Assembly: GCF_000772045.1 (NCBI RefSeq) | Contig: NZ_CP009754.1 | Location: 2,232,001-2,296,000, forward strand | DNA: 64,000 nt | DNA from: Streptomyces sp. CCM_MD2014 | Lineage (GTDB): Bacteria > Actinomycetota > Actinomycetes > Streptomycetales > Streptomycetaceae | Direction: 5' to 3' | Shown here: piece by piece, positions 39,778 through 59,820 of the stretch | How the letters are laid out: the number at the start of each line of letters is the position of its first letter | Numbering within the stretch: the stretch's first letter is position 1 | The notes under the pieces: model-generated | What the model was told of the DNA's origin: nothing | What the model saw: the letters and a program-made list of their open reading frames with translations, nothing else | The model's database searches: none | Translations under genes and position numbers: made by a program

Positions 39778-40607
39778 GTTGCTTCCCTTGTTGCCTTCCT
39801 GTGCGGGGTGGTGCCGAGGGCGTCGAGTTCGGTGCCCAGGTGGGCGAGCAGCCGGTCGCGGGACGGGCCGCCGTTCAGGAAGAAGTGGTTGCCCGGCAGG
39901 TGGCGGCGCAGGAACGAGCCCGTGGTGTAGGGCCGCCAGGCCTCGACCGCCTCCGGGGCGGCGATGGGGTCCTCGGTGGCGGAGAACGCGGTCGTCGGGC
40001 AGTCCAGCGGCGGCCGGGGCTGCCAGCGGTAGCGCTCGCAGGCGCGCAGGTCGGCGCGGAGCACCGGGAGCCTGCGGTCGAAGTAGGCGGCGCCGAGGGT
40101 GTCCGCGTCGTCGAGGCCGCCCAGGTCCCGGATCACCTCGCGCAGTCCGGCGTCGGACAGGGTGTGGTCGGCGCGGTCGCCGTACAGGTGCGGTGCCCGG
40201 CTGCCGGAGACGAACAGGTGCCGGGGGGCCGGCAGTGCGCGCCGGCGCAGCAGGCAGGCCACCTCGTAGGCGAGCAGGGCGCCCATGCTGTGCCCGAACA
40301 GGGCGTAGTCGTGGACCAGCCCGTGCTCCTCCAGGGCGTCCGCGACCGCTTCGGCGAGGGGCGCCATGGTGTCGTACGGGCGTTCGCGCAGCCGCAGTCC
40401 GCGGCCGGGCAGTTGCACGGGGACGACGGCGACGGCGTCGCCCAGGTGCTCCTGCCAGCCGCGGAACGCGGAGACCGTGCCCCCGGCGTAGGGGAAGCAG
40501 ACCAGGCGCAGCGGTGCGGTCGCCGGGTCGGGCTGCCCGGCGGCCGGTGACGCGACGGGGCGGGGAAACCAGGCGGACCGCTGGGAGAGCAGGTCAGCGG
40601 GCGACAT
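39765..40607 (-). CDS. redJ: RedJ, type II thioesterase
   Basis: A 280-residue alpha/beta hydrolase of the TEII family: FPYAGGTVSAFRGW near the N-terminus, the nucleophile elbow FGHSMGALLAYE at about residue 115, and the late catalytic His in PGNHFFLNGG. In the red pathway RedJ is thought to release the C12 fatty acid from the RedQ carrier for RedL, or to clear mis-loaded carriers. It overlaps redK and redI by 14 and 13 bases. Confidence 0.93.
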   Translation of the reverse strand: MSPADLLSQRSAWFPRPVASPAAGQPDPATAPLRLVCFPYAGGTVSAFRGWQEHLGDAVAVVPVQLPGRGLRLRERPYDTMAPLAEAVADALEEHGLVHDYALFGHSMGALLAYEVACLLRRRALPAPRHLFVSGSRAPHLYGDRADHTLSDAGLREVIRDLGGLDDADTLGAAYFDRRLPVLRADLRACERYRWQPRPPLDCPTTAFSATEDPIAAPEAVEAWRPYTTGSFLRRHLPGNHFFLNGGPSRDRLLAHLGTELDALGTTPHRKATREATWTF

Positions 40608-41637
40608 GGGCGCGCCCCTCCGCCGAGTCGAGCCAGGCGACGGTGCGCCGCATGCCCTCCTTGAAGTCGACCTCGCCCTTGAAGCCCAGCTCCTCCTGGG
40701 CCCGCCCGATGGGGTAGGACTGGTCGCGGTCGAAGAGGTGGACCGCGTGCCGGGTCAGCACGGGCCGCGAGTCGATGCGCAGGACGCCCCACAGCTTCTC
40801 GGAGACGGTGGCCACCGCGGTGGCGACGGGCGTGGGCAGGCTCAGCCAGGGGGCCTTCACGCCCAGGCCCTCGGCGAGTGCCTCGACGTACTCGCGCCAG
40901 GTGGTGTCGTGCGGGTCGCGCAGGTTGTAGGCGCGGCCCGCGGTGTGCTCGCCGGTCGCTGCGGCGATGATGCCGTCCACGGCGTTGGAGACGTAGAGCA
41001 GTCCGGCGGGCACCCGGCCGCCGCGGATGTAGACCATCTGCTTGCTCAGCAGCAGGTTGGCGATCTCGATCACGAAGTCCTTGCTGCCCGGGCCGTAGAC
41101 GGAGACGGGGCGGACCACGGTGACGGGCAGGCCGGTGCGTTCGGCGGCGGCCCACACGGCGCGCTCGCCCAGCATCTTGCTGCGGTTGTAGGGCAGGCCG
41201 ATGTCGCGCGGGGCGGTGGTCTCGTCGCAGGGCCGCTCGGGGTAGCCGTAGACGTCGGTGGTGCTGAGGTGGACCAGGCGCTCGACCGTCCCGGCCTCGT
41301 GGGCGGCGTCCACGAGGTTCTTGGCGCCGTCCACGTTGACCGCGCGGAACCGGTCCCACGGGCCCCAGTCGGCCGAGAGTCCGGCGCAGTTGTAGACGTG
41401 GCGCACTCCGTCGGTGGCGCGGCGCAGGCTGTCGGTGTCACCGAGGTCGCCGACGGTGACCTGGGCGGCGGCCCCGGCGAAGGCCGCGCGGTCGCTGGTG
41501 GAGCGCGCCAGGACGCGGACGCGGTGCCCGCGCTCGGCCAGCCGGTGCACCAGGTGACCGCCGATGAATCCGCTGGCGCCGGTGACCAGGACGTCGGGGG
41601 CGGCGGCGGACGGGCTGTCTTGGCTGAGTGAGGACAT
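40594..41637 (-). CDS. redK: RedK, NAD(P)-dependent oxidoreductase of the SDR/epimerase family
   Basis: A 347-residue extended short-chain dehydrogenase. The cofactor motif VTGASGFIGGHLVHRL opens the protein (about residue 18) and the catalytic Tyr-x3-Lys is in LPYNRSKMLGE (about 155). It reduces the keto group of the pyrroline made by RedL, giving 2-undecylpyrrole after loss of water. Only three bases separate it from the end of redL. Confidence 0.93.
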   Translation of the reverse strand: MSSLSQDSPSAAAPDVLVTGASGFIGGHLVHRLAERGHRVRVLARSTSDRAAFAGAAAQVTVGDLGDTDSLRRATDGVRHVYNCAGLSADWGPWDRFRAVNVDGAKNLVDAAHEAGTVERLVHLSTTDVYGYPERPCDETTAPRDIGLPYNRSKMLGERAVWAAAERTGLPVTVVRPVSVYGPGSKDFVIEIANLLLSKQMVYIRGGRVPAGLLYVSNAVDGIIAAATGEHTAGRAYNLRDPHDTTWREYVEALAEGLGVKAPWLSLPTPVATAVATVSEKLWGVLRIDSRPVLTRHAVHLFDRDQSYPIGRAQEELGFKGEVDFKEGMRRTVAWLDSAEGRAHVAR

Positions 41638-41640
41638 GGA

Positions 41641-44600
41641 TCACACCAGGAGGTCGAGGGAGTGTTCGAGGTCTGCTTCGCTGTGGTCCGCGTTGATGAA
41701 GAAGCGGAGCCGGCACTGGTCGCGCGGGACGGCGGGGTAGCCGATCGGCATGACGTTGACGCCGCGCTCCAGCAGCGAGTTGGAGAGCGCCATCGTCTTC
41801 TCCCAGTCGCCGGTGATCACGGGGATCACGGCGGAGAGGCGGGAGACTCCGACGTCGAGGCCGCGGGCGCGGGCGCCGGCCCGGAAGAACTCGGCGAGTT
41901 CCTGGACGCGTGCGACGCGTTCCGGCTCGTCCTGGACGACGCGCAGCGCCTCCAGCGCGGCGGCGGCGTTGGCCGGGGAGATGCCGGTGGAGAAGATGTG
42001 CAGCGGCGCGGTGAACTTGAGGTACTCGATGATCGGGCGGCGGGCCGCGATGTAGCCGCCGAGGCTGCCCAGCGCCTTGCTGAGGGTGCCCATCCACAGG
42101 TCGACGTCGGCCGGGTCGGTGCCGTAGTGCTCGCCCACGCCGCGGCCGGTGCGGCCCAGGACGCCGATGGAGTGCGCCTCGTCGATCATCAGCATCGCGC
42201 CGTGCCGCTTCTTGACCTCGATGAAGCGCGGCAGGTCGGGAATGTCGCCGTCCTGGCTGTAGGCGCCCTCGATGACGACCAGCGCCCGGCGGTGCGAGGC
42301 CCGGGCGCCGGCCAGGATGCGGTCCAGGGCGGCCCAGTCGTTGTGCGGGAAGGACCGGCGCCGGGCGCCGGAGAGGATGCAGCCGCGCACGGTGCTGTCG
42401 TGGATCCACGCGTCGTGCACCACCAGGTCCTCCGGGCCGAACAGGTGGCCGACGGTGGCGACGTTGGTGGCGTGGCCGCCGGAGAACACGATGGCCGCCT
42501 CGGCACCGATGAACCGGGCGATCTCGGCTTCGAGTTCGTGGTGCAGCGGGGTCTCGCCGAACAGCAGCGGGGTGGCGGAGGCCGAGGTGCCGTAGCGGTC
42601 CACGGCGTCCTTGGCGGCCTGGCGCACCCGGGGGTGGTGGGAGAGCGCGAGGTAGTTGAAGGCGGCGAAGTTGACGACCTTGGTGCCGTCGACCGTGGCG
42701 AGCGCGGAGTTGAAGCCCTCGTGGGTGCGGCCGTAGGGGTTGGAGCCGCTGGTCCGGGTCTGCCGGAGCCTGCCCTGGAGTTCGGCGTACTCCGCCCAGT
42801 CCTCGAAGGTGTGCTCCTGGCGGACGGGGGCGGCGGCGGACGCCGGCGCGGGGGCGGCGGACGCGGGCGCCGGGGTGGGGGCCGCCTGGGCCGGGGCGGG
42901 CGGCGTCGGGACCGGGGCGGGCGGCGTCTGGACCGGGGCGGGCGGCGTCGGGGAGGGGAACGGGAACGCCTGCTGCGGGAACGGCTGGGGGACGTAGTAG
43001 GCGTACGCGGGGGCGCCGTGCGGCGGGTAGCCGTACGGGTACGGGTACGGCACCCCCGGCTGCGGGACGGGAGCGGCGACGGCGTAGCCGTGCGGCGGGG
43101 CCGGGAAGGCGCCGTAGGGGCCGTACTGGGGTGCCGGGGCGTGCGGCGCCGCAGGTACGGCCGCTGGAGGGGCGGCCGGCGGCGCGCTCGCGCCGGTGCC
43201 GGCACCGGCGGCAGGGGTGGCGTCGCGGTCGTCGCCCGCGGAGAGCCGGCCGATGATGTCCTGCACCGTGGGGTCCTCCGGCACGTCCTGGAGCGTGTGC
43301 ATCCGTTGGGGGAAGCGGTCGGTGAGACGGCGCTGGAGGTCGGTCCGCATCAGCGAGTCGAACCCCAGGTCGAGACCCAGCCGGGCGTGCACCGGCAGGT
43401 CGGCCACGGGGAATCCGCAGACGGCTGCGACGGCGTCGAGCACGGTGCGGGAGACCTCGCCCGCCGGGTCCGTCTCGGCTGTGCTCGTCGCCGTGGGCTG
43501 GGACGGCATGGGATCGCCTTCCTGGTCGGGAGTGGGAGCGTGGAACCGGTAGGTCCGGCGCTCGAAGGGCGTGTGCGGCAGCGGGACGCGGGCGGGCGGG
43601 TGCTCGCCGTCCAGGGCGGACCAGTCCACGCTCCCGCCGGCGCAGTGGTGGGCGCCCAGCGACCGGAGCAGGGTGCGCCGGCCGGGGGCGCCGCGGCGCA
43701 GCGAGGGCAGCCACAGCGTCGGGCGCCCGTCGCCCGCCGGGGCGTCGGCGACGGCGGCCCGGCCCAGGTTCAGCAGGGTCGGGTGCGGGCCGATCTCGAC
43801 GAAGGCGTCGCAGAACAGACCGCCCTCCGTGTCCCGGTCGCGCAGGCGGGCGAAGCCCTCGGCGAAGCGCACGGTGCCGAGCAGGTGCCGGACCCAGTAC
43901 TCCGCGTCCACCCGCTCCACCGGTTCGCCGGTGGCGTCGGAGATCCAGGGGATGCGCGGGGCGTGGAACTCGACGGCGCGGGCGGCCTTGCGCAGCGGCT
44001 CAGCGGCGCCCGCCATCAGCGGTGAGTGGAAGGCGTGCGAGACGACGAGCGGCCGGACGGTGACCCCCTTGCGCTCCAGGTCGGCACGGAGCGCCGCGAC
44101 CCGGTCGGCCGCGCCGGAGAGCACCAGGTTGCGGGGCCCGTTGACCGCGGCGAGCGCCACCTCCTCGTGGCCGGCGGCGATGTCGCGCACCGTCTCCGGG
44201 TCGCCGACGCAGGCGATCATCGCGCCCTCGCCGGGCTGCTCGTCCATGGCGCGCCCGCGGACGACCGCGAGCGTGAGGGCGTCCTCCAGAGAGAGGACGC
44301 CGGCGACGCAGGCGGCGGCGAGCGCGCCGACGCTGTGCCCGAGCACGGCGGCCGGGCGCACTCCGCAGCTCTCCCACAGGTCCGCGAGGGCGACTTCGAG
44401 GGCGACCAGGGCGGGCTGGCAGTAGCGGGTGCGGGCCAGGTCCTCGGCGTGCTCCGGGTCGAAGAGCAGGCCGAGCAGCGGGATCTCGCCCAGGTCGCGC
44501 AGGACCGCGTCGGCGCGCCGCAGGGTGCGGGCGAACACGGGGTGGGCGTCGTACAGGTCGCGGCCCATGCCCGGGTACTGGGTGCCCTGGCCGCCGAAGA

Positions 44601-47600
44601 GGAAGGCGACGGTGGGTGCGCCGCCGGGCGCGGGTTCGCCGCGGGCCACGTCGACGGCGGGCTCGCGACGGATCAGCGCGTCCAGCGCGGCGTCCAGTTC
44701 GTCCCTGGTCCCGGCGGTGAGGACCGCGCGGTGCGGCAGCGGGGAGCGGCCGGTGCTGGCGGAGCGGCACAGGGCGGCGAGCGGCACGTCGGGGTGGGCG
44801 GCGAGGTGGGTGCGGTAGAGGCCGGCCAGGGTGGTCAGGGCGGTCTCGGTGTGCGCGGACAGGGCCAGGGCGTGCACCGTGCCGTCGGGGGTCTCGGACG
44901 CGTCGGCGGGGGCCTGGGGTTCGGGCGCGGACTCGACGATCACGTGGGCGTTGGTGCCGCCGAAGCCGAAGGAGCTGACGCCGGCGCGCAGGGTGCCCTC
45001 GGCGGGCAGGGCCCTGCGGGTGGTGGGCACGGTCAGGCCCGAACCCGTCCAGTCCAGGTGCCGGTTGGGGGTTTCCAGGTGCAGCAGCGGCGGTACCTCC
45101 CGGTGCCGTACCACGAGCACCGCCTTGATCAGCCCGGCGATGCCCGCGGCCGCCTCCAGGTGGCCGATGCCGGTCTTGACGGAGCCGACCGGGCAGGGCG
45201 CGTCGGCGGGGCGGCCCCGGCCGTAGACACCGGCCAGCGCCTCCCATTCGACGGGGTCGCCCAGGGCGGTGCCGGTGCCGTGCGCCTCGACGAAGTCGAT
45301 CTGCCCGGGTTCGACCCCGGCCCGCTCCAGCGCCCCGGTCATCACGGCGCGCTGGGCGGTGGTGCGGGGCGCGGTCAGGCCGTTGGCCCGGCCGCCGTGG
45401 CCGAGCGCGGAGCCGGTGAGCACGGCGTGCACGCGGTCGCCGTCGGCCAGTGCGGCGGACAGCGGTTTGAGGCACACCAGGCCCGCGCCCTCGCCGCGCA
45501 CATAGCCGTCGGCGCCGTCGTCGAAGGTGCGGCAGCGTCCGCCGGGGCCGAGCATCCCGCCCCGGGCGAGCGCCGCCGAAAGGCCCGGGGCCAGCATCAG
45601 GTTGACGCCGCCGGCGAGGGCGATACCGCACTCGCCGTCCCGCAGGCTGCGCAGGGCGGTGTGGACGGCGGCGAGCGAGGACGAGCAGGCGGTGTCGAGG
45701 GCGAGGCTCGGCCCGCGCAGGTCGAAGAAGTAGGAGAGCCGGCCCGCCGCGACGGACTGGGCGTTGCCGGTGGCCGAGTACATGTCGACGACGTCGGGGT
45801 GGGGCATCTGGAGGTCGGCGTAGTCGTGCCCGCTGACCCCGACGAAGACGCCCGTGTCCGAGCCCGCCAGGGAGGAGGGAGCGATGCCCGCGTCCTCCAG
45901 GGTCTGCCAGGCGACCTCCAGGAGCAGCCGCTGCTGGGGGTCCATGCGTTCGGCCTCGCGGGCGGAGATGCCGAAGAAGCGGGCGTCGAAGTCGTAGACG
46001 TCGTCCAGGAAGCCGCCCGGGCGCCCGCCGGGACCCGCGACGTCGGCCGCCCGGTCGGCGGGGGCCTCGCCCACGGCGTCCCGGCCGTCCCGCAGCAGCC
46101 GCCAGTAGCTGTCGGCGTCGGGGGCGCCGGGGAAGCGGCAGCCGATGCCGACCACGGCGACGGGCTCGTCGGCGGGGGTGCGGCGGGCGGTGCCGCGCGG
46201 ACGCGGGTGCGGGGCGGCGTCGGTGCCGGGGGCCGGGGTGCGGCTCCCGGCGCCCCTCGTCGCGTCGGCGGTGACGTGCGCCGCCAGGGACTCGACGGTC
46301 GGGTGGTCGTAGACGGTGGCCGGCGTGACGGGGGTGCCGAGCCAGTCGCCGAACCGGTCGGCGAGGGACACCGCCTGCTTGGAGTCCAGGCCCAGGGAGG
46401 TGAAGGGCACGGTCGGGTCGATCACCGAGGGGCGCAGGCCCAGCCGGGCGGCGACGGCGCGCCGCAGCCAGGTCACGGCCTCCGTCCGGGTCCGGCCCGG
46501 CGCGGGTGCCGGCGTGGCGTCGGCCAGGGCCGTCCGGCACAGTGCGGTCAGGGCGTCGGCGCCGTCCGGTTCGGGGCCGGACAGGAGCGTGCCGACGTCC
46601 AGGGCGACGCCGAGGCCGTCGGCCAGTGTGCGTACGGCCGTCAGCAGCCGTGAGTAGCGCGGGGCCCCCTCGGCGGCGTGCGAGGCGGCGAGGGCGTCGG
46701 CGACGAGGGCGGCCGTGCGCTCCGGTGCGCCGGGGCCCGAAAGGCGCGGCCCGGTGGCGTCGGGGAGTGTGCCGTCCTGGACGACGCTCGCGGCCACCAC
46801 GGGCAGTTCGAGGTCGAGCAGTTGCTGACGGCAGGCGCTGCGCTGGATCTTGCCGCTGGTGGTGCGCGGCACCGAGGAGCGCCTGAGCAGCACGACGGTG
46901 TGCGGAGTCACCTGGTGCTCGTCGGCGATGGCGGTGCGCAGACGGGCCAGCAGGGCGTGCGGGTCCCCGGCGCCGGGCCCGCCGATCTCGTAGGCGAGCG
47001 CCAGTTGTTCGCCGTCCTCGGTGGGGATGCCGAACGCGGCCCCGTGCCCGGCGCGCAGACCGGCGCCGACGCGCTCGGCCGTCTGCTCCACGTCCTGCGG
47101 ATGGATGTTGCGGCCCTGGACGATGATCACGTCCTTGGTCCTGCCGACGACGAAGAGCTGGCCGTCGTGGCGGAACCCGAGGTCTCCGGTGCGCAGCCAC
47201 GCGGTGTCGGGTCCGTCCTCGACGCGGGTGCCGAAGACGTCCGCGCCGGCCCCGGGGCGCTTCCAGTAGCCGCGGGCGACGTTCGGTCCGGTCACCCGGA
47301 TCTCGGCGACGGTGCCGTCGGGGACCCGGTGGCCGGTGGCGGCGTCGACCAGCGCGACCTCGACGTCGTCGACGGGTGCTCCGCAGCCGACGACGCGGGT
47401 GGTGCGTACGCTGCCCGGATCCGCCCGGCGTGCGGTGCCCGCCTCCAGGGCCGCCGCGTCGAAGGACTCCACCACGGGTGGCTCGGCCGGTTCGGCGCCG
47501 GTGACCATGAGGGTCGCCTCCGCGAGGCCGTAGCAGGGCAGCAGCGCGGTGCGGTCGAAGCCGGCCGGTGCGAAGTACTCGGCGAACCGGTCGAGGGTGT

Positions 47601-48579
47601 CGGGGCGGATCGGCTCGGCCCCGTTCAGGGCGAGGCGCCAGCGGCTGAGGTCCAGGCCGGCCCGCTGTTCGGGGCTGATCCGGCGCAGGCACTGCTCGAA
47701 GCCGAAGTTCGGCGCGACGCTGGTGGAGGCGCCGGTGCGGGAGAGGGTCTCCAGCCACAGCAGCGGGCGCTGCACGAAGGTCATCGGGGCCATCAGATGC
47801 GCGGGGAAGCCGCCGTACACCGGGGTGAGGATGCCGCCGATGAGGCCCATGTCGTGGTACGGCGGCAGCCAGGACACCATGCCGGAGCCGGCGTCGTGGC
47901 CGAGCCTGAGGTGGATGGAGCGCAGGTTGCGCACCAGGTTGCCGTGCTCGACCATCACGCCCTTGGGCGCGGCCGTGGAGCCGGAGGTGTACTGGAGGAA
48001 GGCCAGGGAGTCCGCCGTGAGGCCGGGGTCCTCCCAGGGGGCGGTGGAGTCGCCGGTGTAGAGGTCCTCGGTCACCAGCCAGCGCACGTCGTCGAGTTCG
48101 GCGCCGACGTGTCCGGTGCCGCGGGCGGCGACCGCCTCGCGGACCTTGCCGGTGGTGAGGGCGTGGGTGGCGGCGGAGTCCCGGGCGATGGCGGCGAGGC
48201 GGGGCACCGTCTGCCCGAACCGGGCGTTGTCCGGCGGGTAGGCGGGGACGGCCACCGCACCGGCGTACAGGCAGCCGAAGAACGCGGCGAGGTAGTCGAG
48301 GCCCGGCGGGTGCAGCAGCAGGACGGGGCCCTGGCCCACCTGCTCGCGGCGCAGGTGGGCGGCCACCTCGCGGGCGTGCAGGTCGAGTTCGCGGTAGGTC
48401 CAGGCGACGGAGGTGCCGTCGCCGTCGATGAGGAAGCGGTGGGCGAGGGCGTCCGGGGTGTGCTCCGCCCGGTGCCGCAGCAGGGCGGTGACGGTCTCCG
48501 GTTCGGGTCCCTGCCAGTGCGCGCGTATCGGCTCCGTCGGCCCCTGACTCACGTTCTTCTCCATGGATCGCCGGGCCAC
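41641..48579 (-). CDS. redL: RedL, hybrid acyl-AMP ligase/PKS/alpha-oxoamine synthase
   Basis: A 2312-residue megaenzyme that turns dodecanoic acid, malonate and glycine into a 2-undecylpyrroline. Order: fatty acyl-AMP ligase (about 20-590, TSGSTAAPKGVMVEHG); carrier 1 (about 700-780, LGLDSK); ketosynthase (800-1225, Cys in DTACSSSLAAV near 965); malonyl acyltransferase (1325-1625, GHSVGALAAA); carrier 2 (about 1740, LGFDSLMRTDL); a Pro/Ala/Tyr-rich linker (1790-1920); and a PLP alpha-oxoamine synthase (1920-2312, Lys in TLSKALGSLGG). GTG 48579 follows GGAACGG by 8 bases; ATG 48564 is an alternative without such a site. Confidence 0.96.
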   Translation of the reverse strand: MARRSMEKNVSQGPTEPIRAHWQGPEPETVTALLRHRAEHTPDALAHRFLIDGDGTSVAWTYRELDLHAREVAAHLRREQVGQGPVLLLHPPGLDYLAAFFGCLYAGAVAVPAYPPDNARFGQTVPRLAAIARDSAATHALTTGKVREAVAARGTGHVGAELDDVRWLVTEDLYTGDSTAPWEDPGLTADSLAFLQYTSGSTAAPKGVMVEHGNLVRNLRSIHLRLGHDAGSGMVSWLPPYHDMGLIGGILTPVYGGFPAHLMAPMTFVQRPLLWLETLSRTGASTSVAPNFGFEQCLRRISPEQRAGLDLSRWRLALNGAEPIRPDTLDRFAEYFAPAGFDRTALLPCYGLAEATLMVTGAEPAEPPVVESFDAAALEAGTARRADPGSVRTTRVVGCGAPVDDVEVALVDAATGHRVPDGTVAEIRVTGPNVARGYWKRPGAGADVFGTRVEDGPDTAWLRTGDLGFRHDGQLFVVGRTKDVIIVQGRNIHPQDVEQTAERVGAGLRAGHGAAFGIPTEDGEQLALAYEIGGPGAGDPHALLARLRTAIADEHQVTPHTVVLLRRSSVPRTTSGKIQRSACRQQLLDLELPVVAASVVQDGTLPDATGPRLSGPGAPERTAALVADALAASHAAEGAPRYSRLLTAVRTLADGLGVALDVGTLLSGPEPDGADALTALCRTALADATPAPAPGRTRTEAVTWLRRAVAARLGLRPSVIDPTVPFTSLGLDSKQAVSLADRFGDWLGTPVTPATVYDHPTVESLAAHVTADATRGAGSRTPAPGTDAAPHPRPRGTARRTPADEPVAVVGIGCRFPGAPDADSYWRLLRDGRDAVGEAPADRAADVAGPGGRPGGFLDDVYDFDARFFGISAREAERMDPQQRLLLEVAWQTLEDAGIAPSSLAGSDTGVFVGVSGHDYADLQMPHPDVVDMYSATGNAQSVAAGRLSYFFDLRGPSLALDTACSSSLAAVHTALRSLRDGECGIALAGGVNLMLAPGLSAALARGGMLGPGGRCRTFDDGADGYVRGEGAGLVCLKPLSAALADGDRVHAVLTGSALGHGGRANGLTAPRTTAQRAVMTGALERAGVEPGQIDFVEAHGTGTALGDPVEWEALAGVYGRGRPADAPCPVGSVKTGIGHLEAAAGIAGLIKAVLVVRHREVPPLLHLETPNRHLDWTGSGLTVPTTRRALPAEGTLRAGVSSFGFGGTNAHVIVESAPEPQAPADASETPDGTVHALALSAHTETALTTLAGLYRTHLAAHPDVPLAALCRSASTGRSPLPHRAVLTAGTRDELDAALDALIRREPAVDVARGEPAPGGAPTVAFLFGGQGTQYPGMGRDLYDAHPVFARTLRRADAVLRDLGEIPLLGLLFDPEHAEDLARTRYCQPALVALEVALADLWESCGVRPAAVLGHSVGALAAACVAGVLSLEDALTLAVVRGRAMDEQPGEGAMIACVGDPETVRDIAAGHEEVALAAVNGPRNLVLSGAADRVAALRADLERKGVTVRPLVVSHAFHSPLMAGAAEPLRKAARAVEFHAPRIPWISDATGEPVERVDAEYWVRHLLGTVRFAEGFARLRDRDTEGGLFCDAFVEIGPHPTLLNLGRAAVADAPAGDGRPTLWLPSLRRGAPGRRTLLRSLGAHHCAGGSVDWSALDGEHPPARVPLPHTPFERRTYRFHAPTPDQEGDPMPSQPTATSTAETDPAGEVSRTVLDAVAAVCGFPVADLPVHARLGLDLGFDSLMRTDLQRRLTDRFPQRMHTLQDVPEDPTVQDIIGRLSAGDDRDATPAAGAGTGASAPPAAPPAAVPAAPHAPAPQYGPYGAFPAPPHGYAVAAPVPQPGVPYPYPYGYPPHGAPAYAYYVPQPFPQQAFPFPSPTPPAPVQTPPAPVPTPPAPAQAAPTPAPASAAPAPASAAAPVRQEHTFEDWAEYAELQGRLRQTRTSGSNPYGRTHEGFNSALATVDGTKVVNFAAFNYLALSHHPRVRQAAKDAVDRYGTSASATPLLFGETPLHHELEAEIARFIGAEAAIVFSGGHATNVATVGHLFGPEDLVVHDAWIHDSTVRGCILSGARRRSFPHNDWAALDRILAGARASHRRALVVIEGAYSQDGDIPDLPRFIEVKKRHGAMLMIDEAHSIGVLGRTGRGVGEHYGTDPADVDLWMGTLSKALGSLGGYIAARRPIIEYLKFTAPLHIFSTGISPANAAAALEALRVVQDEPERVARVQELAEFFRAGARARGLDVGVSRLSAVIPVITGDWEKTMALSNSLLERGVNVMPIGYPAVPRDQCRLRFFINADHSEADLEHSLDLLV

Positions 48580-50178
48580 TTAGCGGGCCGTTCCGAGCGG
48601 TGCGTCGGCGCGCGGGTCCGCGTCGAGGCCGAGTCGGCGGTAGTCGGTCTTGCCGTTGGGGTTGAGGGGCATCCGGTCCAGGCGGACGGCGCCGTGCGGG
48701 ACCATGTAGGTCGGCAGGTGCCGTGCGCAGTGCTGCTTGAGCTCCACCAGGCCGATCCGGTCGGCGCCCTCGCGCAGGGTGTAATAGAGCCTGAGCCGCG
48801 CCCGGGGGCCGGAGCCGTCGACCAGGACGGCGGCGTCGGCGATGCCGGGGTGGCGCAGCGCGGCGGCCTCGATCTCGCCCAGCTCGATCCGGTAGCCGGA
48901 GAGCTTCACCATGCGGTCCTTGCGCCCGCGGTAGACGAGCCGGCCGTCCTCCTCGTAGCTGACCAGGTCGCCGGTGGGGTGCACGCCCCGGCAGTGGGCG
49001 GTGGAGACGGGCTCCTCGGCGCGCCGCCAGTAGCCGGGGGTCACACACACGCCGGACACGTGGAGTTCGCCGATGGCGCCGGGCTCGCGGACGGTGCGGC
49101 CGGCGTCGTCGACGACGGTGGTCGTGGCGCCGGTGATCGGCAGCCCGATCGGTACCGGGGTGGCGCGGTGCAGGTCCTCGGGGCGGACCCGGTGGTAGGT
49201 GCAGACGTTGGTCTCGGTGGGGCCGTAGAGGTTGTAGAGGGGGGTGCCGGCGGGGAGCAGTTCGCTGAGCGCGCGCAGCTGCGGGACGGGGAAGACCTCG
49301 CCGGCGAAGAGGACGTAGCGCAGGCTCGCGGCGTGCTCGGGCGTGAGCGCGGCGGAGGCGGTCAGCAGGTGCAGGACCGACGGGACGGAGTACCAGACGG
49401 TGACCCGGTGCCGGCGGATGCCCTCGGCCAGCGCGGTCACGTCCTTGGTCGCCGCGTCGGGGACGATCCACAGCGCGGCGCCGCAGGACAGCGCGGTGAA
49501 CAGGTCGAAGGTGCTCAGGTCGAAGTTGAACGAGGCGTGGCCGGCGAACACGTCGTCGGGTCCGACGTCCAGTTCGTTGCGGGCCCAGGCCACGAAGTTG
49601 GCCAGTGAGCCGTGCGAGATCTGCACGCCCTTGGGCGTGCCGGTGGACCCGGAGGTGTAGAGGACGGCGGCGAGGTCGCCGGGGGTGAGGGAGGGCAGCA
49701 GCGTGACCCCGCCCGCGCGGCCCTGCTCCCAGCTCTCCCAGGTGGCGACCGGTGTGCCGCCCACGGCGGTGGGCAGCCCGTCGCCGACGGCCACGACCGT
49801 GGTGACGGAGGCCGGCAGGTCGTCGTCGCCGAGCAGGGCGGCGTGGTGCGCGTCGGTGAACAGGACGACGGGTTCGGCGTCCGCCAGGATGGTCCGCACC
49901 CTGCTCACCGGCTGGCCGCCGTCCAGGGGGACGTAGGCGCACCCTGCCTCCAGGGCGGCGACGATCGCCTCGGCGTAGCGCGGCTGCTTGTCCATCCAGA
50001 TCGCGATGCGGTCGCCCGCGCGCGCCCCGAGGCTGAGCAGGTGGGCGGCCACGGCCTCGACCCGGGCGGTGAACTCCCCGTACGTCAGGGGGTCGGAGCC
50101 GACGAAGGCGGGCCGGGAGGCGTGCTGCGCGGACGCGGCCCTGGGCAGGCGTATCACGGAGGGAGTGGTGGCGCTCAT
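48580..50178 (-). CDS. redM: RedM, L-proline adenylation enzyme
   Basis: A 532-residue free-standing NRPS-type adenylation domain: LYTSGSTGTPKGVQISHGSL (core A3), then NLYGPTETN (A5), PTGDLVSYEEDGRLVYRGRK (A7/A8) and the Lys of A10 in NPNGKTDYRRL. It activates L-proline and loads it on RedO, the first step of the bipyrrole half. AGGAGAAGGG precedes the ATG. It lies behind a 115-base gap with hairpins after redN and is directly followed by redL. Confidence 0.94.
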   Translation of the reverse strand: MSATTPSVIRLPRAASAQHASRPAFVGSDPLTYGEFTARVEAVAAHLLSLGARAGDRIAIWMDKQPRYAEAIVAALEAGCAYVPLDGGQPVSRVRTILADAEPVVLFTDAHHAALLGDDDLPASVTTVVAVGDGLPTAVGGTPVATWESWEQGRAGGVTLLPSLTPGDLAAVLYTSGSTGTPKGVQISHGSLANFVAWARNELDVGPDDVFAGHASFNFDLSTFDLFTALSCGAALWIVPDAATKDVTALAEGIRRHRVTVWYSVPSVLHLLTASAALTPEHAASLRYVLFAGEVFPVPQLRALSELLPAGTPLYNLYGPTETNVCTYHRVRPEDLHRATPVPIGLPITGATTTVVDDAGRTVREPGAIGELHVSGVCVTPGYWRRAEEPVSTAHCRGVHPTGDLVSYEEDGRLVYRGRKDRMVKLSGYRIELGEIEAAALRHPGIADAAVLVDGSGPRARLRLYYTLREGADRIGLVELKQHCARHLPTYMVPHGAVRLDRMPLNPNGKTDYRRLGLDADPRADAPLGTAR

Positions 50179-50233
50179 GGGGTGTGGGCCCTTCTCCTTG
50201 ACGTGCGTGGGTGGCTCGGGGCCCGGGCCCCGT

Positions 50234-50256
50234 CCGGCAGGGAGGGGGCCTGCCGG
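50234..50256 (-). terminator. Hairpin in the redN-redM gap
   Basis: CCGGCAGG (50234-50241) and CCTGCCGG (50249-50256) form an 8-bp stem with a 7-base loop in the 115-base gap between redN and redM. A second self-complementary stretch (GGGCCCGGGCCC region, about 50217-50232) lies beside it. It could attenuate transcription or set message decay; the operon must still read through. Confidence 0.5.
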
Positions 50257-50293
50257 TCGGGGGCCGGACGTGCGGGGCGGACGGAGACGGCCG

Positions 50294-52207
50294 CTACGGG
50301 GTGCCGGGCAGCACCCCGGTCTCGCGGGCCGCCTCGACGAAGATCCCGGCGGCCTCGTCCAGGTCCTGCGGGGTGTGCTCGCAGGTGACGCTGACGCGCA
50401 GGCGGGCGTCGCCGAGGGGGACGCCGGGGTAGACCACGGTCTGGCAGAACAGGCCGCGGGCGCGTACGGCCCGGCCCATCTCCATGGCGCGGCGTTCGTC
50501 GCCGATGACGATGGGCAGGATCGCGCTCTCGGAGTGCTCCAGGTCGAACCCGGCCTCCAGCAGCCGGTCGCGCAGCGTGCCGATGTTGGTCCACAGCCGC
50601 TTGAGGCGTTCGGGCTCGGCCTCGATGACGTCGATGGCGGCGATCAGGCCGGCCGCGACCCCGGCGGGGATGTTCGCGGCGAAGACGTAGGAGTTGGAGT
50701 AGTAGCGCAGGTACTCGACGACCTCCTCCTCGCCGACGACGAACCCGCCCATGCCGGCCAGGGTCTTGCTCATGGTGCCCAGCTCCAGGTCGACCTCGCC
50801 CTTGAGGCCGAAGTGCTCGGCGGTGCCGGAGCCGCGGACGCCGAGGACGCCGGTGGCGTGCGCGTCGTCGATCATGACGCGGGCGTCGTACTCCTTGGCC
50901 AGGCGGACGATCTCGGGGAGGTCGCAGACGTCGCCGTGCATGCTGAAGACGCCGTCGGCGACGATCAGCCTGCCGCCGGTGCCCTCCGCGGCGCTGCGGC
51001 TGAGGATCCGCTCCAGGTCGGCCATGTCGTTGTGCCGGTAGATCTTGCGCACCGCGCCGGAGAGCCGGGCGCCGTCGACGATGCTCATGTGGTTGAGGCG
51101 GTCGACGACGAGGGTGTCGTAGCTCTTGACCAGGGCCGAGATGGCGCCGAGGTTCGCGGAGTAGCCGCCGGGATAGACGATGCAGGCGGGCCGCTGTTTG
51201 AAGGCCGCCAGCCTGCGCTCCAGTTCCTTGTGCAGCATGTTGGTGCCGCCGATGAACCGGGAGCCGGTGTGGGTGGCGCCGTAGGTGCGGGTGGCGTCGC
51301 AGACGGCCTCGACGACACTGGGGTGGTTGGCGAGACCGAGGTAGTTGTTGGAGGCGAACATGAGGAACTCGCGCTTGCGGCCCTCCAGTTCGTCGAAGAT
51401 GACGGCACGGTTGCCGCACTTGGAGTGCAGCGGCATGCCGTACCAGTACAGGCGGTCCTTCTCGCGGGAGCGCAGGTAGCCGGCGAAGCTGCGGGTCTTG
51501 GCGAACAGGTCGGGGTCGCGCTGCTCGGTGAAGTCCTTCATGGAGCGGTGGTCCCAGCCGTCCCCGTCGGCTCCGGGCGCCGAGCCGGGGGTCTGCCGAG
51601 GCTGGTCCGTGCCCGCGCCGTTGCCCGTGTCCCGGGCGGCGGTGTCGCAGGCGCGCAGCGCGTCGGCCAGGGTGCGCAGGGTCGTGGCACCGGAGAGGTC
51701 CGGGGCCGCGCCGGTGATCCCGAGCTGCTCGGTGGCCTCGGCGACGACGGAGGTCAGGACAACCGAGTCGACGCCCAGCTCGCCCTCCAGGTCGGCGTCG
51801 AGGGCGAGTTGGTGGCGCTGGTACTGGGTCTGCCGCATGGCGGCGGCGACCACGGCCTCGGTGACGGGGTCGTCCGCTCCCCCGTCGGCGGCGGGCGCGG
51901 CCCCGGCGGTGGCGGACGCGGACCCGGCGGTGGCGGACGTGTCGGCGTCGGCCAGCGCGGTCCGTACGGCGTCCACGAGTTCGCCGATGGTCGCCGAGCC
52001 GGCCGGCAGCTCGGCGGAGAGGGCGAAGTGCTCGCGGACGGAGGCCAGGACGGACTCCATGATGACCGAGTCGATGCCGAGATCGGCCTCGAAGTGGCTC
52101 TCCGGCCGCAGGTGGGCGACGTCGTACAGGGTGCGGGCGGCGATGACCTCCACGACGCCGTCGCGGATGCGCGCGGTGTCCGGGTGGGTGTCCACGGGAT
52201 TCGTCAT
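50294..52207 (-). CDS. redN: RedN, di-carrier alpha-oxoamine synthase
   Basis: A 637-residue protein with two tandem carrier domains (phosphopantetheine Ser47 in LGIDSVIM and Ser148 in LGVDSVVL) and a C-terminal PLP alpha-oxoamine synthase like 8-amino-7-oxononanoate synthase (from about 225; Lys in TMSKTLAGMGG). In the red pathway it holds malonyl units for RedX and condenses the pyrrolyl-ketide with serine to form the second pyrrole ring. An Ala/Gly/Ser linker (about 90-115) joins the carriers. The start overlaps the redO stop (ATGA). Confidence 0.94.
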   Translation of the reverse strand: MTNPVDTHPDTARIRDGVVEVIAARTLYDVAHLRPESHFEADLGIDSVIMESVLASVREHFALSAELPAGSATIGELVDAVRTALADADTSATAGSASATAGAAPAADGGADDPVTEAVVAAAMRQTQYQRHQLALDADLEGELGVDSVVLTSVVAEATEQLGITGAAPDLSGATTLRTLADALRACDTAARDTGNGAGTDQPRQTPGSAPGADGDGWDHRSMKDFTEQRDPDLFAKTRSFAGYLRSREKDRLYWYGMPLHSKCGNRAVIFDELEGRKREFLMFASNNYLGLANHPSVVEAVCDATRTYGATHTGSRFIGGTNMLHKELERRLAAFKQRPACIVYPGGYSANLGAISALVKSYDTLVVDRLNHMSIVDGARLSGAVRKIYRHNDMADLERILSRSAAEGTGGRLIVADGVFSMHGDVCDLPEIVRLAKEYDARVMIDDAHATGVLGVRGSGTAEHFGLKGEVDLELGTMSKTLAGMGGFVVGEEEVVEYLRYYSNSYVFAANIPAGVAAGLIAAIDVIEAEPERLKRLWTNIGTLRDRLLEAGFDLEHSESAILPIVIGDERRAMEMGRAVRARGLFCQTVVYPGVPLGDARLRVSVTCEHTPQDLDEAAGIFVEAARETGVLPGTP

Positions 52208-52538: not shown

Positions 52539-53546
52539 TCAGACCGGATCGATGGCGGGCCAGGTCAGTGCGGCGGCGCCCCAGGTGAGTCCGCCGCCGA
52601 ACGCGGTGAGCAGGATCCGGTCGCCGGGCCGGATGGTGCCCTGGGCATGCGCGTGGTCGAGCGCGAGGGGGATGGAGGCGGCCGCCGTGTTGCCCACCTC
52701 GGCGATGTTGCCGACGCTGCGCTGTCGGGGAATGCCGATCTCGTCGGCCAGTCGTGCGGTGATGCGGTGGTTGGCCTGGTGGCTGACCAGCCAGTCCACG
52801 TCCTCCAGTTGCCAGCCGGCCCGGTCGAGCACGCTCGCCGCGCACTCGCCCATGCGCTGGACGGCGAGCCAGAAGACCCGCTTGCCCTCCATGGTGAAGT
52901 AGCGGTCGGCGGAGTCGGCCGGTGCCGTCTCGCCCGGCCGCGGGGGGCCGCCGGCCGGCACGGTGATCAGGTCCACGCCGGTGCCGTCGCTGCCCAGCCG
53001 CAGCGGGCCGAGGGCGCCGGTCTCGTCCGCCTCGCCGGCCCGCAGGACGACGGCTCCCGCGCCGTCACCGAAGATCACCGAGGTGGACCGGTCCTCGGGG
53101 TTGAGGATCCGGGAGAACGTCTCCGCGCCGATGACGAGGACCCGTTCCGCGGCACCCGAGGCGATCAGGCCGGACGCCGTGGCGAGCCCGTAGAGGAACC
53201 CGGAGCACACCGCGGCGACGTCGAACGCCGTGATCGGGCCGGCCCCCAGCCTGGCCGCCACCGTCGGCGCGGTCGCCGGGCAGGGCCGGTCCGGGGTGGT
53301 CGTGGCCACGATGACCGCGTCGATCGCGTCCGGGGTCAGACGCGCGGACTTCAGCGCCCGCTCGGCGGCGCCCACCGCCAGGTCGGAGGTGCGGGTGCCG
53401 TCGTCGGCGACGTAGCGCTGCGCGATGCCCGTCCGCGCCCTGATCCAGGCGTCCGAGGTGTCCATGGTCCGTTCCAGCTCGGCGTTGGTGACGCACCTGG
53501 ACGGCAGACAGGAGCCGATGCCGGCTACCACGGACGCCCGGCTCAC
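52539..53546 (-). CDS. redP: RedP, ketosynthase III (FabH-like)
   Basis: A 335-residue KASIII with Cys in AAVCSGFLYGLA, His in SHQANHRITARL and Asn in GNTAAASIPLAL. It starts fatty-acid chain building from acetyl-CoA and malonyl-RedQ for the C12 chain of prodiginine. The GTG 53546 start has no ribosome binding site of its own but overlaps the stop of a 24-codon leader ORF (GTGA) that has one; GTG 53591 would add 15 unconserved residues with no site either. First main gene of the long minus-strand operon. Confidence 0.92.
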   Translation of the reverse strand: MSRASVVAGIGSCLPSRCVTNAELERTMDTSDAWIRARTGIAQRYVADDGTRTSDLAVGAAERALKSARLTPDAIDAVIVATTTPDRPCPATAPTVAARLGAGPITAFDVAAVCSGFLYGLATASGLIASGAAERVLVIGAETFSRILNPEDRSTSVIFGDGAGAVVLRAGEADETGALGPLRLGSDGTGVDLITVPAGGPPRPGETAPADSADRYFTMEGKRVFWLAVQRMGECAASVLDRAGWQLEDVDWLVSHQANHRITARLADEIGIPRQRSVGNIAEVGNTAAASIPLALDHAHAQGTIRPGDRILLTAFGGGLTWGAAALTWPAIDPV

Positions 53547-53617
53547 CGGGCACCGCCCACGGAGCGGCTCCGGTGTGCGGTCTGCCGGCACGTGCGGCGG
53601 CGGAGACGGGAAACCAC
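53543..53617 (-). CDS. Candidate Arg-rich leader ORF coupled to redP
   Basis: A 24-codon frame from GTG 53617, with GAGGAG 7 bases upstream, encodes MVSRLRRRTCRQTAHRSRSV plus four residues; eight of 24 residues are Arg. Its TGA overlaps the redP GTG as GTGA. It lies in the untranslated part of the SARP-driven redP transcript. It gives the missing translation start signal for redP. Whether the peptide itself does anything is unknown. Confidence 0.5.
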   Translation of the reverse strand: MVSRLRRRTCRQTAHRSRSVGGAR

Positions 53618-53693: not shown

Positions 53694-53736
53694 AGTCTGG
53701 CCGGGTCCCCTGACCGGGCGCTGACGTCCCGCTGAC
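53694..53736 (-). promoter_or_regulatory. SARP-type promoter of redP operon
   Basis: On the minus strand three heptamers GTCAGCG, GTCAGCG, GTCAGGG begin 11 bases apart (53736, 53725, 53714). The last is followed by exactly 8 bases and then CAGACT (53699-53694), a usable -10. This is the layout of SARP activator promoters, and RedD is the cluster's SARP by established knowledge. Confidence 0.88.
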
Positions 53737-53770
53737 CGCGGCTCCCGTCCGGCGGGCGCAGCGCCCCGGG

Positions 53771-53813
53771 GTCAGCCAGCCGTCAGCGGGCCGTCAGCGC
53801 ACCGCCCCAGACT
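53771..53813 (+). promoter_or_regulatory. SARP-type promoter of redQ operon
   Basis: Heptamers GTCAGCC, GTCAGCG, GTCAGCG begin at 53771, 53782 and 53793 (11-base pitch). Eight bases (53800-53807) then separate the last from CAGACT (53808-53813). It is a mirror image of the redP promoter, with the same -10 sequence. The two sets are 34 bases apart and face away from each other. Confidence 0.88.
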
Positions 53814-53918: not shown

Positions 53919-54164
53919 ATGAGCACCACCTACGACAGGCTCGTTGATCTGCTGGTCGACGGTTTCGCGGTGGACCGCGCTGCGATCCGTCCGGACGTGA
54001 CCTTCGAAGAGCTGGAGATGGACTCGCTGTTCCTCGTGGAACTGCTCCTCGTCATCCAGTCCGAGTTCGGTGTGAAGATCAGCGACGACGCCGCGGTCCC
54101 GACCGACACCATCGCCCACGCGGTGGCGCTGGTCGACAGCGAGATAGCGGCCACGGCGTCATGA
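53919..54164 (+). CDS. redQ: RedQ, acyl carrier protein
   Basis: An 81-residue acyl carrier protein with the phosphopantetheine Ser36 in LEMDSLFLVEL. It carries the growing C12 chain made by RedP, RedR and shared fatty-acid enzymes. First gene of the plus-strand red operon, about 105 bases downstream of the SARP promoter. It overlaps redR by four bases (ATGA). Confidence 0.94.
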   Translation: MSTTYDRLVDLLVDGFAVDRAAIRPDVTFEELEMDSLFLVELLLVIQSEFGVKISDDAAVPTDTIAHAVALVDSEIAATAS

Positions 54165-55384
54165 CCGACCGCTCCGTTGCCGTGACCGGACTCGGTCTGG
54201 TGACCGCGGCCGGACTGGGCGTCGACGCCACCTGGGAAGGGGTGCTGCGCGGGGAGTCGGCGGGAGCCAAGGACGACCGGCTCGCGGGACTGCCCGTGGA
54301 CATCGCCTGTGCGGTGCCGGGCCTGGACCCGGCGCGCCACGTGGACCGGCGCAGCAAGCTGGTGCACGACCGCTTCGTACAGCTGGCGATCGTGGCCGCC
54401 CGGGAGGCCGTGGCCGACGCCGGACTCGATCCGCTGACCTGGGACGGTGCCCGGGTGGGCGTGGTCGTGGGCTGCGGGCTGGGCGGCGTGTCGACGTGGG
54501 AGACCCAGCACCGGCGGCTGCTGGAGCGCGGTCCCGAGGCGGTCTCCGCGCTGCTGGTGCCGATGCTGGTGCCCAACATGGCGGCCGGGCACCTCGCGAT
54601 GGACCTGCGGGCCCTCGGCCCCAACCTGGTGACCGCGACCGCCTGCGCCTCGGGCGGCACCGCGCTCGGCACCGCCGCCCGGCTGCTGCAGGACGGGACG
54701 TGCGACATCGTCGTGGCCGGTGGCAGCGAGGCCGGGGTCAGCCCGCTCATGGTCACCGGCTTCGCGCAGATGGGCGCGCTGTCCCGCCGGGTCGGGGAGC
54801 CCGCGGCGGCGTCCCGGCCCTTCGACGCCGACCGGGACGGCTTCGTCATCGGCGAGGGCAGCGGCATGCTCGTCCTGGAGCGGCCGGCGGACGCCGAGGC
54901 GCGCGGCGCCACGGTCCGTGCCCGGCTCGTGGGTCACGGCGCGTCGGCCGACGCCCACCACGTCACGGCACCCGATCCCGAGGGCGCCGGCGCGCAGCGG
55001 GCGATGGAGGCGGCCCTGGCCCAGGCAGGCGTCTCGGGCCGCGACATCGACCACGTGAACGCGCACGGCACCTCGACGCCGCTCAACGACGCGGTGGAGG
55101 CCGCGGTGCTGGGCCGGCTGCTGGGCGACGGGGCGACCGTCACCTCGACCAAGGGTGTCCTCGGGCACACGCTGGGCGCCGCCGGTGCCATCGAGGCGGC
55201 GCTGACCGTGCTGTCCGTCGAGCGGTCCACCGTCCCGCCGACCGCGAACCTCCGGCGGCAGGACCCCGCCGTCGACCTGGACGTGGTCGCCGGCGCCCCG
55301 CGGGAGCAGAAGGTGGAGTTGGCGATGAGCAACTCCTTCGGCTTCGGCGGGCAGAACGCGGTCCTGGTCTTCGCCTCCCCGTAG
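54161..55384 (+). CDS. redR: RedR, ketosynthase II (FabF-like)
   Basis: A 407-residue KASII with the active Cys in TATACASGGTALG, His in VNAHGTSTPLND and the second His in KGVLGHTLGAAG. It elongates the RedQ-bound chain up to dodecanoyl. The length and the GFGGQNAVLVF C-terminus are normal. It is coupled to redQ. Confidence 0.95.
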   Translation: MTDRSVAVTGLGLVTAAGLGVDATWEGVLRGESAGAKDDRLAGLPVDIACAVPGLDPARHVDRRSKLVHDRFVQLAIVAAREAVADAGLDPLTWDGARVGVVVGCGLGGVSTWETQHRRLLERGPEAVSALLVPMLVPNMAAGHLAMDLRALGPNLVTATACASGGTALGTAARLLQDGTCDIVVAGGSEAGVSPLMVTGFAQMGALSRRVGEPAAASRPFDADRDGFVIGEGSGMLVLERPADAEARGATVRARLVGHGASADAHHVTAPDPEGAGAQRAMEAALAQAGVSGRDIDHVNAHGTSTPLNDAVEAAVLGRLLGDGATVTSTKGVLGHTLGAAGAIEAALTVLSVERSTVPPTANLRRQDPAVDLDVVAGAPREQKVELAMSNSFGFGGQNAVLVFASP

Positions 55385-55519
55385 AGCCCGCCCGGCGGCC
55401 ACCGCCCCCGGCCGTCTCCCCGAACGCGTACGCGCGGACCCGTACGCGCGGCCCCGTACCCCGTCACGAGCGTCCCCCGTTCGGGGCGCCCCTCGTCAAC
55501 CTCCGGAAGAAGCTGTCCC
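55385..55519 (+). other. redR-redS intercistronic structure
   Basis: This 135-base gap, the longest in the redQ-V operon, has two direct copies of CGTACGCGCGG (about 55426-55436 and 55441-55451) and an inverted pair CCCCGAAC (55418-55425) / GTTCGGGG (55479-55486). It could be a processing or attenuation site, or just spacer. No gene seen. Confidence 0.45.
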
Positions 55520-55960
55520 GTGACCGGACGAAACCTGATCCTCCAGCGCATCGTCGGCGCCCTCTACATCCTTGCGGGGATAGGCAAGTTCTTCCCGCAG
55601 CTGGAATCGGTGGAGGGGCGCCTGGACGACGCCTCGGAAGCCAACCAAGGAACCGTGATCTCCGGCTTCGTGGACTGGCTGGACGGCCACCCCACCGGCG
55701 TCATGTGGTTCGTCGCCGTCGCGATGGTCGCGGCGGGCGTGGCTCTGCTGTGGAACCGCCGGGGCCTGGTGATCGCCGCGCTCTACGGACAGTTGCTGAT
55801 GCTGGTGATGTTCGTGATCATCCTGGTGAGCAGTGTCCCGCAGATCCTGGTGATGGACGCCGCGTTCTTCGCCGCCGCGATCTACCTCTTGTACCGGTAC
55901 CACTCGTCGCCGGGCGGGCGGTTCGCCGCGCCGTCGGGCCCGACCCGGGAAGCCCGGTGA
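55520..55960 (+). CDS. redS: RedS, DoxX-like membrane protein
   Basis: A 146-residue membrane protein with four hydrophobic helices (about 8-24, 58-80, 86-110, 113-130), similar in build to DoxX-type proteins. It starts with GTG after GGAAGAAG. Its role in prodiginine production is unknown. The gene identity comes from its place between redR and redT. Confidence 0.85.
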   Translation: MTGRNLILQRIVGALYILAGIGKFFPQLESVEGRLDDASEANQGTVISGFVDWLDGHPTGVMWFVAVAMVAAGVALLWNRRGLVIAALYGQLLMLVMFVIILVSSVPQILVMDAAFFAAAIYLLYRYHSSPGGRFAAPSGPTREAR

Positions 55961-55967
55961 CCCGGCC

Positions 55968-56858
55968 ATGACCTTCTCCGTACCCTCCGACGCGCTCGAC
56001 ACCCTGGAGGACGAGGTCACGCGGGCGCTGCGGACCACCGACGACCGGGCCCTGACCATCCTCGGCTACGGGGAGGTGACGCTGGTGCTGCGCCTGGAGA
56101 CCGACGCGGGCGCGTTCGCGTGCAAGCGGCTGCCCGTCTTCCCGTCCCCACAGCGGCTGGACCGGCACTCGGCCTTGGTCGACGACTACATCACCCGGCT
56201 GGACAAGGGCGGCGTCTCGGTCGCCGAGACCCGCATGTGGCACCGGCCGCTGCGGGGCGGCCGGGCCGTCGCCTACTGCGTCCAGGAGGCGCTGCCCGAG
56301 GAGCGGCTGTGCTCGCGCCTGCTGCACACGGCCGGCGAGGCCTGGTGCGACGGGTTCTTCGAGCGGTTCCTCGACCGCGTCGAGGCGACCGTGACGCCCC
56401 GGCTGGGGCTGGACGGGCAGGCGTCCAACTGGATCGAGGTCGACGGCGAGTTGGTGTACCTCGACGTGACGACTCCGCTGATGCGCGACGAACGCGAGCG
56501 GGAACTCCTCGACGTGCCCCTGTTCTTCACCTCGCTGCCGTGGCTGCTGCGGGACGTGGTGCGGCTGGCGATGACGAAGTCGATCTTCGACAAGTTCTAC
56601 ACGCCGCGCGGAGTGGTCCTCGATTTCCTCGGCAACCTGCACAAGGAGCGGCTGGAGTGGCTGGTCCCCCGCTTCCTCGAGCAGGCCAACGCCCGCCTGG
56701 ACCGGCCGCTGGACGCCGAGGAGGTCAGGGCCTACTACCGTGAGGACGCGCGGATGTGGGAGCTGATCCAGCGGCTGCGCAAGGCGGACCGCTTCGTCCA
56801 CAACAAGGTGCTGCACCGGCCCTACCCGTTCCTGCTGCCCCGTCATGTCGCCCGGTGA
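55968..56858 (+). CDS. redT: RedT, unknown function, kinase-like
   Basis: A 296-residue protein with no assigned function. By eye it shows a protein-kinase-like pattern: a Gly-containing loop GYGEVTLVLRL (about 24-34), a Lys in FACKRLPVF (about 45), and later ASNWIEVDGELVYLDVTTP (about 150-170), where Asn and Asp sit as in the catalytic and DFG-like motifs of small-molecule kinases. The His-x-Asp of the usual catalytic loop is missing (GLDGQASN), so activity is doubtful. It overlaps redU by 14 bases. Confidence 0.85.
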   Translation: MTFSVPSDALDTLEDEVTRALRTTDDRALTILGYGEVTLVLRLETDAGAFACKRLPVFPSPQRLDRHSALVDDYITRLDKGGVSVAETRMWHRPLRGGRAVAYCVQEALPEERLCSRLLHTAGEAWCDGFFERFLDRVEATVTPRLGLDGQASNWIEVDGELVYLDVTTPLMRDERERELLDVPLFFTSLPWLLRDVVRLAMTKSIFDKFYTPRGVVLDFLGNLHKERLEWLVPRFLEQANARLDRPLDAEEVRAYYREDARMWELIQRLRKADRFVHNKVLHRPYPFLLPRHVAR

Positions 56859-57642
56859 GACCGCGACGGCCCGCACGGCGGGCGGCCTCGCGGACCAGGT
56901 GGTGCTGGACGTGTCCCGGCCGCTGCGGGTCACGCATTTGACGCCGGCGGCGCGGCGGCTCACCCTCGCCGTGGTGTCCATCGGCTGGCTGCGCGGGCGG
57001 AGCGAGGAGGCCCTCGCCGAACTGCGCGCGCGGTACCTGACGCCCGCCGAGGCGGAGCGGGCCGCGATGCTGCACGCGCCCCGCCGCAGGCACGAGTGGC
57101 TGGCCGGCCGGCTCGCGCTGAAGCACGCCGTCAGTGCGCACGGCCGGCGGCACTGGCATGTGGACCGGGCGCCCGGCACCGTCGAGGTGCGCACCGTGGT
57201 CGGGGGCATCCAGGCGGGAAGGCCGGTGGTGGACGCGCCCGTCGAGGTGGGTCTGACGCACTCGGGGGACTTCGCGGTCGCGGTGTGCGGACCGCACGCG
57301 ATCGGCGTCGATCTGGAGTACGACCGGCCGATGCCGCCGACCCTGGCCAGGGTGCTCGACCGGGAGTGCGACCCGGGGGCGCCGTCACCGGACGCCCGGC
57401 GGCTGGCGGCCATGCCGCCGGCCCTGCGCTGGACGTGCAAGGAGGCCGTGCTCAAGTACTACGGCTTCGGACTGCGGGTCGACGCCCGCGAGGTGGCGCT
57501 GACCGGCTGGCTGCCGGACGGCCGCTTCACCTGGCGGCCCGGGGGCGGGCTGCTGCGTCACGCCCCCACCGCCGAGACGCGGCGGCCGACGGGATGGGCG
57601 GGCGCCGTCCACGGCCACCACCTGGCTCTCGTGGGGCGATGA
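56845..57642 (+). CDS. redU: RedU, phosphopantetheinyl transferase
   Basis: A 265-residue Sfp-type enzyme: the metal-binding motif IGVDLEYDRP (about residue 153) and the W-T-C-K-E-A motif (RWTCKEAVLKYYG, about 195) are both clear. It attaches phosphopantetheine to carrier proteins, in the red pathway chiefly RedO. The last bases overlap the possible upstream start of redV. Confidence 0.94.
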   Translation: MSPGETATARTAGGLADQVVLDVSRPLRVTHLTPAARRLTLAVVSIGWLRGRSEEALAELRARYLTPAEAERAAMLHAPRRRHEWLAGRLALKHAVSAHGRRHWHVDRAPGTVEVRTVVGGIQAGRPVVDAPVEVGLTHSGDFAVAVCGPHAIGVDLEYDRPMPPTLARVLDRECDPGAPSPDARRLAAMPPALRWTCKEAVLKYYGFGLRVDAREVALTGWLPDGRFTWRPGGGLLRHAPTAETRRPTGWAGAVHGHHLALVGR

Positions 57643-59166: not shown

Positions 59167-59820
59167 ATGACGACCCGTGTCCTGGTGTGCTGCGACCGCC
59201 TCATCATGGGCGAGGGAATGCGTGCACTGCTGGAGCGGCACCATCTGAAGGTGCAGGTGGAGACCACCCTGCGTGGCTCGCTCAGCACCGCGGCGGAGAC
59301 CGGGCCCGACGTCCTGGTCGCCGTCGCGCCCCTGGTGACCCTGGACAACATCGACAGACTGACCGAGCTGGCCCGCCTCGGCAAGACGATTCTCCTGAGC
59401 AAACCGGAGAACACCCATCGCGCATTCGAGGCACTCCGTGTCGGAGTACGCGCTGTATTGTCGGCGGAAACATCGGTCGAAGAGCTGGTGCACGTCATCA
59501 AAACCATCACCGAAGTGAACGCCATAATCGCCCCGGAAGAGGCCCAGGAGGCCTTGACGCGCTATTGGCGGAGCAAAGCACCGAAGAATCTCCGCCCGGA
59601 CCTGACTCCGCGGGAAACAGAAGTGCTTATTTTACTGACCCAGGGGAAGACGAACACCGAGATGGCCGGGCACCTTTCCGTCTCGTCCACCACGGTCCGG
59701 TCGCATGTGCACCGGGTCCTGCGCAAACTGGGTGCGGCGACCCGCGCCCAGGCCGTCGCCATCGCCTACGAGTCGGGGCTCCTGGGCACCTGCCCGGGCT
59801 ACGGCTCTCCGACACGCTGA
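59167..59820 (+). CDS. redZ: RedZ, atypical LuxR-type response regulator
   Basis: A 217-residue regulator with an N-terminal receiver-like domain and a C-terminal LuxR helix-turn-helix (LTPRETEVLILLTQGKTNTE, then LSVSSTTVRSHVHRVLRKLG). The receiver lacks the phospho-acceptor Asp: the expected site reads VLVAVAPL. It therefore works without phosphorylation, as known for RedZ, which activates redD. Codon 156 is TTA (59632-59634), so translation depends on the bldA tRNA. Codon use is less GC-rich than in its neighbours. Confidence 0.95.
   Translation: MTTRVLVCCDRLIMGEGMRALLERHHLKVQVETTLRGSLSTAAETGPDVLVAVAPLVTLDNIDRLTELARLGKTILLSKPENTHRAFEALRVGVRAVLSAETSVEELVHVIKTITEVNAIIAPEEAQEALTRYWRSKAPKNLRPDLTPRETEVLILLTQGKTNTEMAGHLSVSSTTVRSHVHRVLRKLGAATRAQAVAIAYESGLLGTCPGYGSPTR

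Follow-up and report, generated by a model that had tools for sequence, protein, structure and literature searches.

Back-to-back GTCAG repeat arrays between redP and redQ as putative SARP operators conserved in red-type gene clusters

In the red-type (prodiginine) gene cluster of Streptomyces sp. CCM_MD2014, redP and redQ lead operons that run in opposite directions, and the DNA between them raises the question of which activator turns the two operons on, and whether it does so through one coupled device or through two separate promoters. The window analyzed here is the whole 64,000-nucleotide stretch that contains this region, and its red genes are named by what is established for their counterparts in S. 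coelicolor. The leftward operon is headed by redP (52539 to 53591, minus strand; start codon uncertain), which Pfam matches PF08545/PF08541 and the list of open reading frames identify as a FabH-type ketoacyl-ACP synthase III. Past redP, the leftward genes (32814 to 52207, minus strand) encode an ACP-aminotransferase, an AMP-binding enzyme, a dehydrogenase, a thioesterase, a methyltransferase, a PPDK-like enzyme, a Rieske oxygenase and others, together with a 2312-aa ORF that presumably occupies the position of the redL megasynthase. The rightward operon is headed by redQ (53919 to 54164, plus strand), an acyl carrier protein gene recognized by PF00550 and by related clusters, and continues with redR (KAS II), DUF6041 and DUF6206 genes and a phosphopantetheinyl transferase gene (54161 to 57642, plus strand). 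A preliminary description, made from the letters alone, had named redP and redQ as the targets, which agrees with our results, and had divided the operons into a bipyrrole/condensation and a fatty-acid set, which is inexact, since the gene heading the supposed bipyrrole/condensation operon is the FabH-type synthase.

Regulatory genes are found on the redQ side. A LuxR-type regulator with a Pfam GerE domain lies in the position of redZ (59167 to 59820, plus strand), and a RedD-type SARP gene with BTAD and Trans_reg_C domains lies 590 bp past the window end (L033:8590-9708, or 64590-65708 in window numbering, minus strand), about 11 kb from the redP-redQ intergenic region and within the same cluster. 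Homologues of redD are also present in most related clusters. In the sequence beyond the window, a ketosynthase-like ORF in place of redX starts about 38 bp after the end of redD, which leaves little space for a separate redX promoter.

The redP-redQ intergenic region contains two arrays of three GTCAGSS heptamers, each at exact 11-bp pitch, that point away from each other. The putative operator of redP (53708 to 53736, minus strand) reads leftwards from 53736 as GTCAGCG GGAC GTCAGCG CCCG GTCAGGG, or GTCAGCGGGAC GTCAGCGCCCG GTCAGGG with each spacer joined to its repeat, and is followed by 8 bp (GACCCGGC) and by CAGACT, the putative -10 of the redP promoter, at 53699 to 53694. The putative operator of redQ (53771 to 53799, plus strand) reads from 53771 as GTCAGCC AGCC GTCAGCG GGCC GTCAGCG, or GTCAGCCAGCC GTCAGCGGGCC GTCAGCG, and is likewise followed by 8 bp (CACCGCCC) and by CAGACT, the putative redQ -10, at 53808 to 53813. 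The positions and spacing of all six heptamers and both hexamers had been given earlier to the exact base. SARP-dependent promoters typically have direct heptamer repeats spaced by 11 or 22 bp, a -10 located 8 bp past the 3′ repeat, and a poor or absent -35, and both strands display this geometry. As read from the sequence, the hexamers 17 bp upstream of CAGACT are AGCGGG (redQ) and AGCGCC (redP), both of them inside the repeats, and neither promoter has a good -35 at normal spacing.

To evaluate conservation, 16 loci were fetched by homology with the DUF6206 protein; of the named relatives retrieved, S. coelicoflavus was the nearest, although the search may have omitted records very close to the window itself. 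Arrays on both strands, beside redP and redQ/redR, were detected at the scan threshold in eight of these loci. A ninth (L046) has looser arrays, identified by eye, each 8 bp before CAGACT or GAGACT, so that 9 of the 16 carry both arrays in the same divergent position. Three more red-type clusters with arrays on both strands (L054, L056 and L057) came from a genus-wide pattern search; a further record, L055, seems to duplicate the stretch in L045. In five Actinomadura loci (L037, L038, L040, L041 and L042) the arrangement differs: redD immediately precedes redP in the same orientation, and redP is preceded by a single array, at a pitch of 11 then 12 bp, whose last repeat lies 8 bp before CAGGGT or CAAGGT. 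One record (L039) breaks off within redP. The Myxococcota locus (L049, from a MAG) encodes a homologue of the DUF6206 red protein that is 48% identical; no match to redP, redQ, redR or redD was obtained there by tblastn, and no array was found.

When the arrays were aligned on their last repeat, the information was concentrated in the three GTCAG cores and, within the -10 hexamer (the redP CAGACT included), in its A, A and T, and a matching hexamer was located 8 bp past the last repeat in all 24 Streptomyces-type and all 5 Actinomadura arrays aligned. The position of the sites is conserved with the target genes, and each related locus of sufficient length contains both the arrays and a redD homologue. 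Other dimensions varied: most Streptomyces arrays have a pitch of 11+11 and those of Actinomadura one of 11+12, and, depending on the cluster, 9 to 161 bp separate the opposing arrays. Five loci (L043, L045, L054, L056 and L057) have four GTCAG repeats per array on both sides. It is conceivable, although we hold this idea with less than even confidence, that the constant 8-bp distance, set against the drift in repeat number, pitch and inter-array gap, reflects a last repeat that alone is rigidly fixed to the polymerase, and that the outer repeats act as adjustable affinity modules.

Similar arrays were observed beyond the redP-redQ position. In L050 (about 3790-3940) and L051 (about 4100-4215), back-to-back GTCAG arrays lie beside a gene for a PLP-dependent (PALP) enzyme, and the array directed at this gene has CAGGCT 8 bp downstream. 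Neither locus gave a red-gene match in the vicinity, and both apparently belong to another cluster type. Since back-to-back arrays also occur in such places, the divergent layout is a recurrent theme. In L052 (4017-4112), back-to-back arrays, both 8 bp before CAGACT, are flanked by an alpha/beta-hydrolase gene on one side and the end of the contig on the other; with a redR-like gene about 3.6 kb away, this is a second array position in a red-like cluster.

Short repeats are numerous in GC-rich DNA, and the arrays could in principle be products of base composition without function. The exact GTCAG triple pattern, however, was found at only two sites in the 8.27-Mb genome, both of them here, and a reversed control pattern was found at none; no triple appeared in 300 first-order Markov windows of 64 kb and the same composition. 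Within the window and 8 kb beyond it, no further place matched at least 13 of the 15 positions of three GTCAG at 11-bp pitch. A weight matrix built from the more distant clusters only gave scores of 43.1 for the redQ array and 28.8 for the redP array, which is the weaker match, while the best score elsewhere in the 72 kb was 6.3 (a one-repeat-shifted overlap excepted) and the best among ten simulated 72-kb sequences was 15.5. The earlier judgment that chance was very unlikely is borne out by the simulations and by a fixed geometry conserved across genera; that conservation already contradicts a chance origin, which can for practical purposes be dismissed. The preliminary description had also proposed scanning the rest of the cluster, particularly upstream of redX, for the same array, and we found none above noise there, including upstream of redX, redD and redZ; a plasmid collection searched with the intergenic region gave no match.

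One alternative is that the arrays act as one unit, in which the equal firing proposed at the outset would be forced by RedD molecules that occupy both arrays jointly or touch across the gap. The two arrays in the window do form an inverted repeat of 57 nt, although an imperfect one (72% complementary), and back-to-back arrays recur in several clusters. But a coupled unit should hold its arrays at a fixed distance, and the gap is free to vary as described above; moreover, the Actinomadura clusters, in which redP is not divergent, retain only one array. Published induction is also unequal: in the work of Mast et al. (2020; PMC7040171), the SARP PapR2 raised redP transcripts 57-fold and redQ transcripts 492-fold in S. 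lividans, although such fold changes depend on basal levels and are not a direct measure of equal output. We consider a coupled device very unlikely and, given the variable gap, set it aside; the claim of equal firing is left unsupported. Since the 8-bp distance to the -10 holds while the gap varies, two independent SARP-dependent promoters are most likely. A different possibility is that the repeats are SARP operators but respond in this strain mainly to a SARP other than RedD, by cross-regulation. Both S. lividans promoters are bound and activated by PapR2, which comes from a different species, and 222 of the 393 genomes in the genus contain GTCAG triples, so the motif is probably common to several SARPs. 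The location of redD in the same cluster, and its co-occurrence with the arrays in the related loci, make this explanation very unlikely.

We therefore regard it as very probable that the region contains two separate, back-to-back SARP-dependent promoters, with RedD binding the repeats and each array driving only its own operon. The part of the initial proposal that had SARP operators driving redP and redQ agrees with the standard geometry, the redD-type gene in the cluster, the conservation of the arrays with the genes, and the action of PapR2 on the S. lividans promoters. RedD is the likely binder on this DNA; an open-access literature search found no RedD binding experiment on this DNA, no mapped transcription start and no DAP-seq study of RedD. 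RedD would bind the GTCAGSS repeats on one face of the DNA, and the promoter-proximal repeats would seat a SARP pair that, by analogy with AfsR, could keep RNA polymerase and sigma-HrdB region 4 in place over the CAGACT -10, for which no usable -35 is available. The third, outer repeat probably accommodates a further protomer. Each array would recruit polymerase to its own CAGACT, and one shared activator would produce co-regulation, with outputs that are not necessarily equal.

The SARP sites between redP and redQ are correctly identified here but are already known in kind and place, having been published for close relatives, and our analysis supports the published site without suggesting a new principle. 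What the comparison across genera confirms is that each operon has its own operator, and that the cluster has no strong SARP target of this kind outside the redP-redQ intergenic region; the two arrays also offer a clean pair of sites on which the working of three-repeat SARP promoters can be measured. In the accessible text of Mast et al. (2020; PMC7040171), which cites earlier predictions by Iqbal et al. (2012), S. lividans has two GTCAGSS motifs between redP and redQ, and PapR2 binds each promoter fragment in gel shifts. The genes (SCO5888/SCO5887 homologues), intergenic position and heptamer consensus are the same as here, with motif matches of 100 and 96.5% there and all six heptamers fitting GTCAGSS in the window, whereas the mirror arrangement and cross-cluster conservation studied here are absent from the discussion in that text. 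A 2025 paper (PMC12692060) describes a predicted SARP-binding sequence upstream of redQ (SCO5887) as RedD-regulated. The PapR2 operators of Streptomyces pristinaespiralis share the GTCAGSS consensus, as stated in the same paper (PMC7040171), but serve a different cluster and activator. The geometry of SARP operators and the structure of the AfsR complex have been published, and the afs box to which AfsR binds in the afsS promoter (PMC10936776) likewise has 11-bp direct repeats, the last of them 8 bp before the -10, that overlap the -35 region; it differs in having two repeats, compared with three here, a large SARP, and a single promoter.
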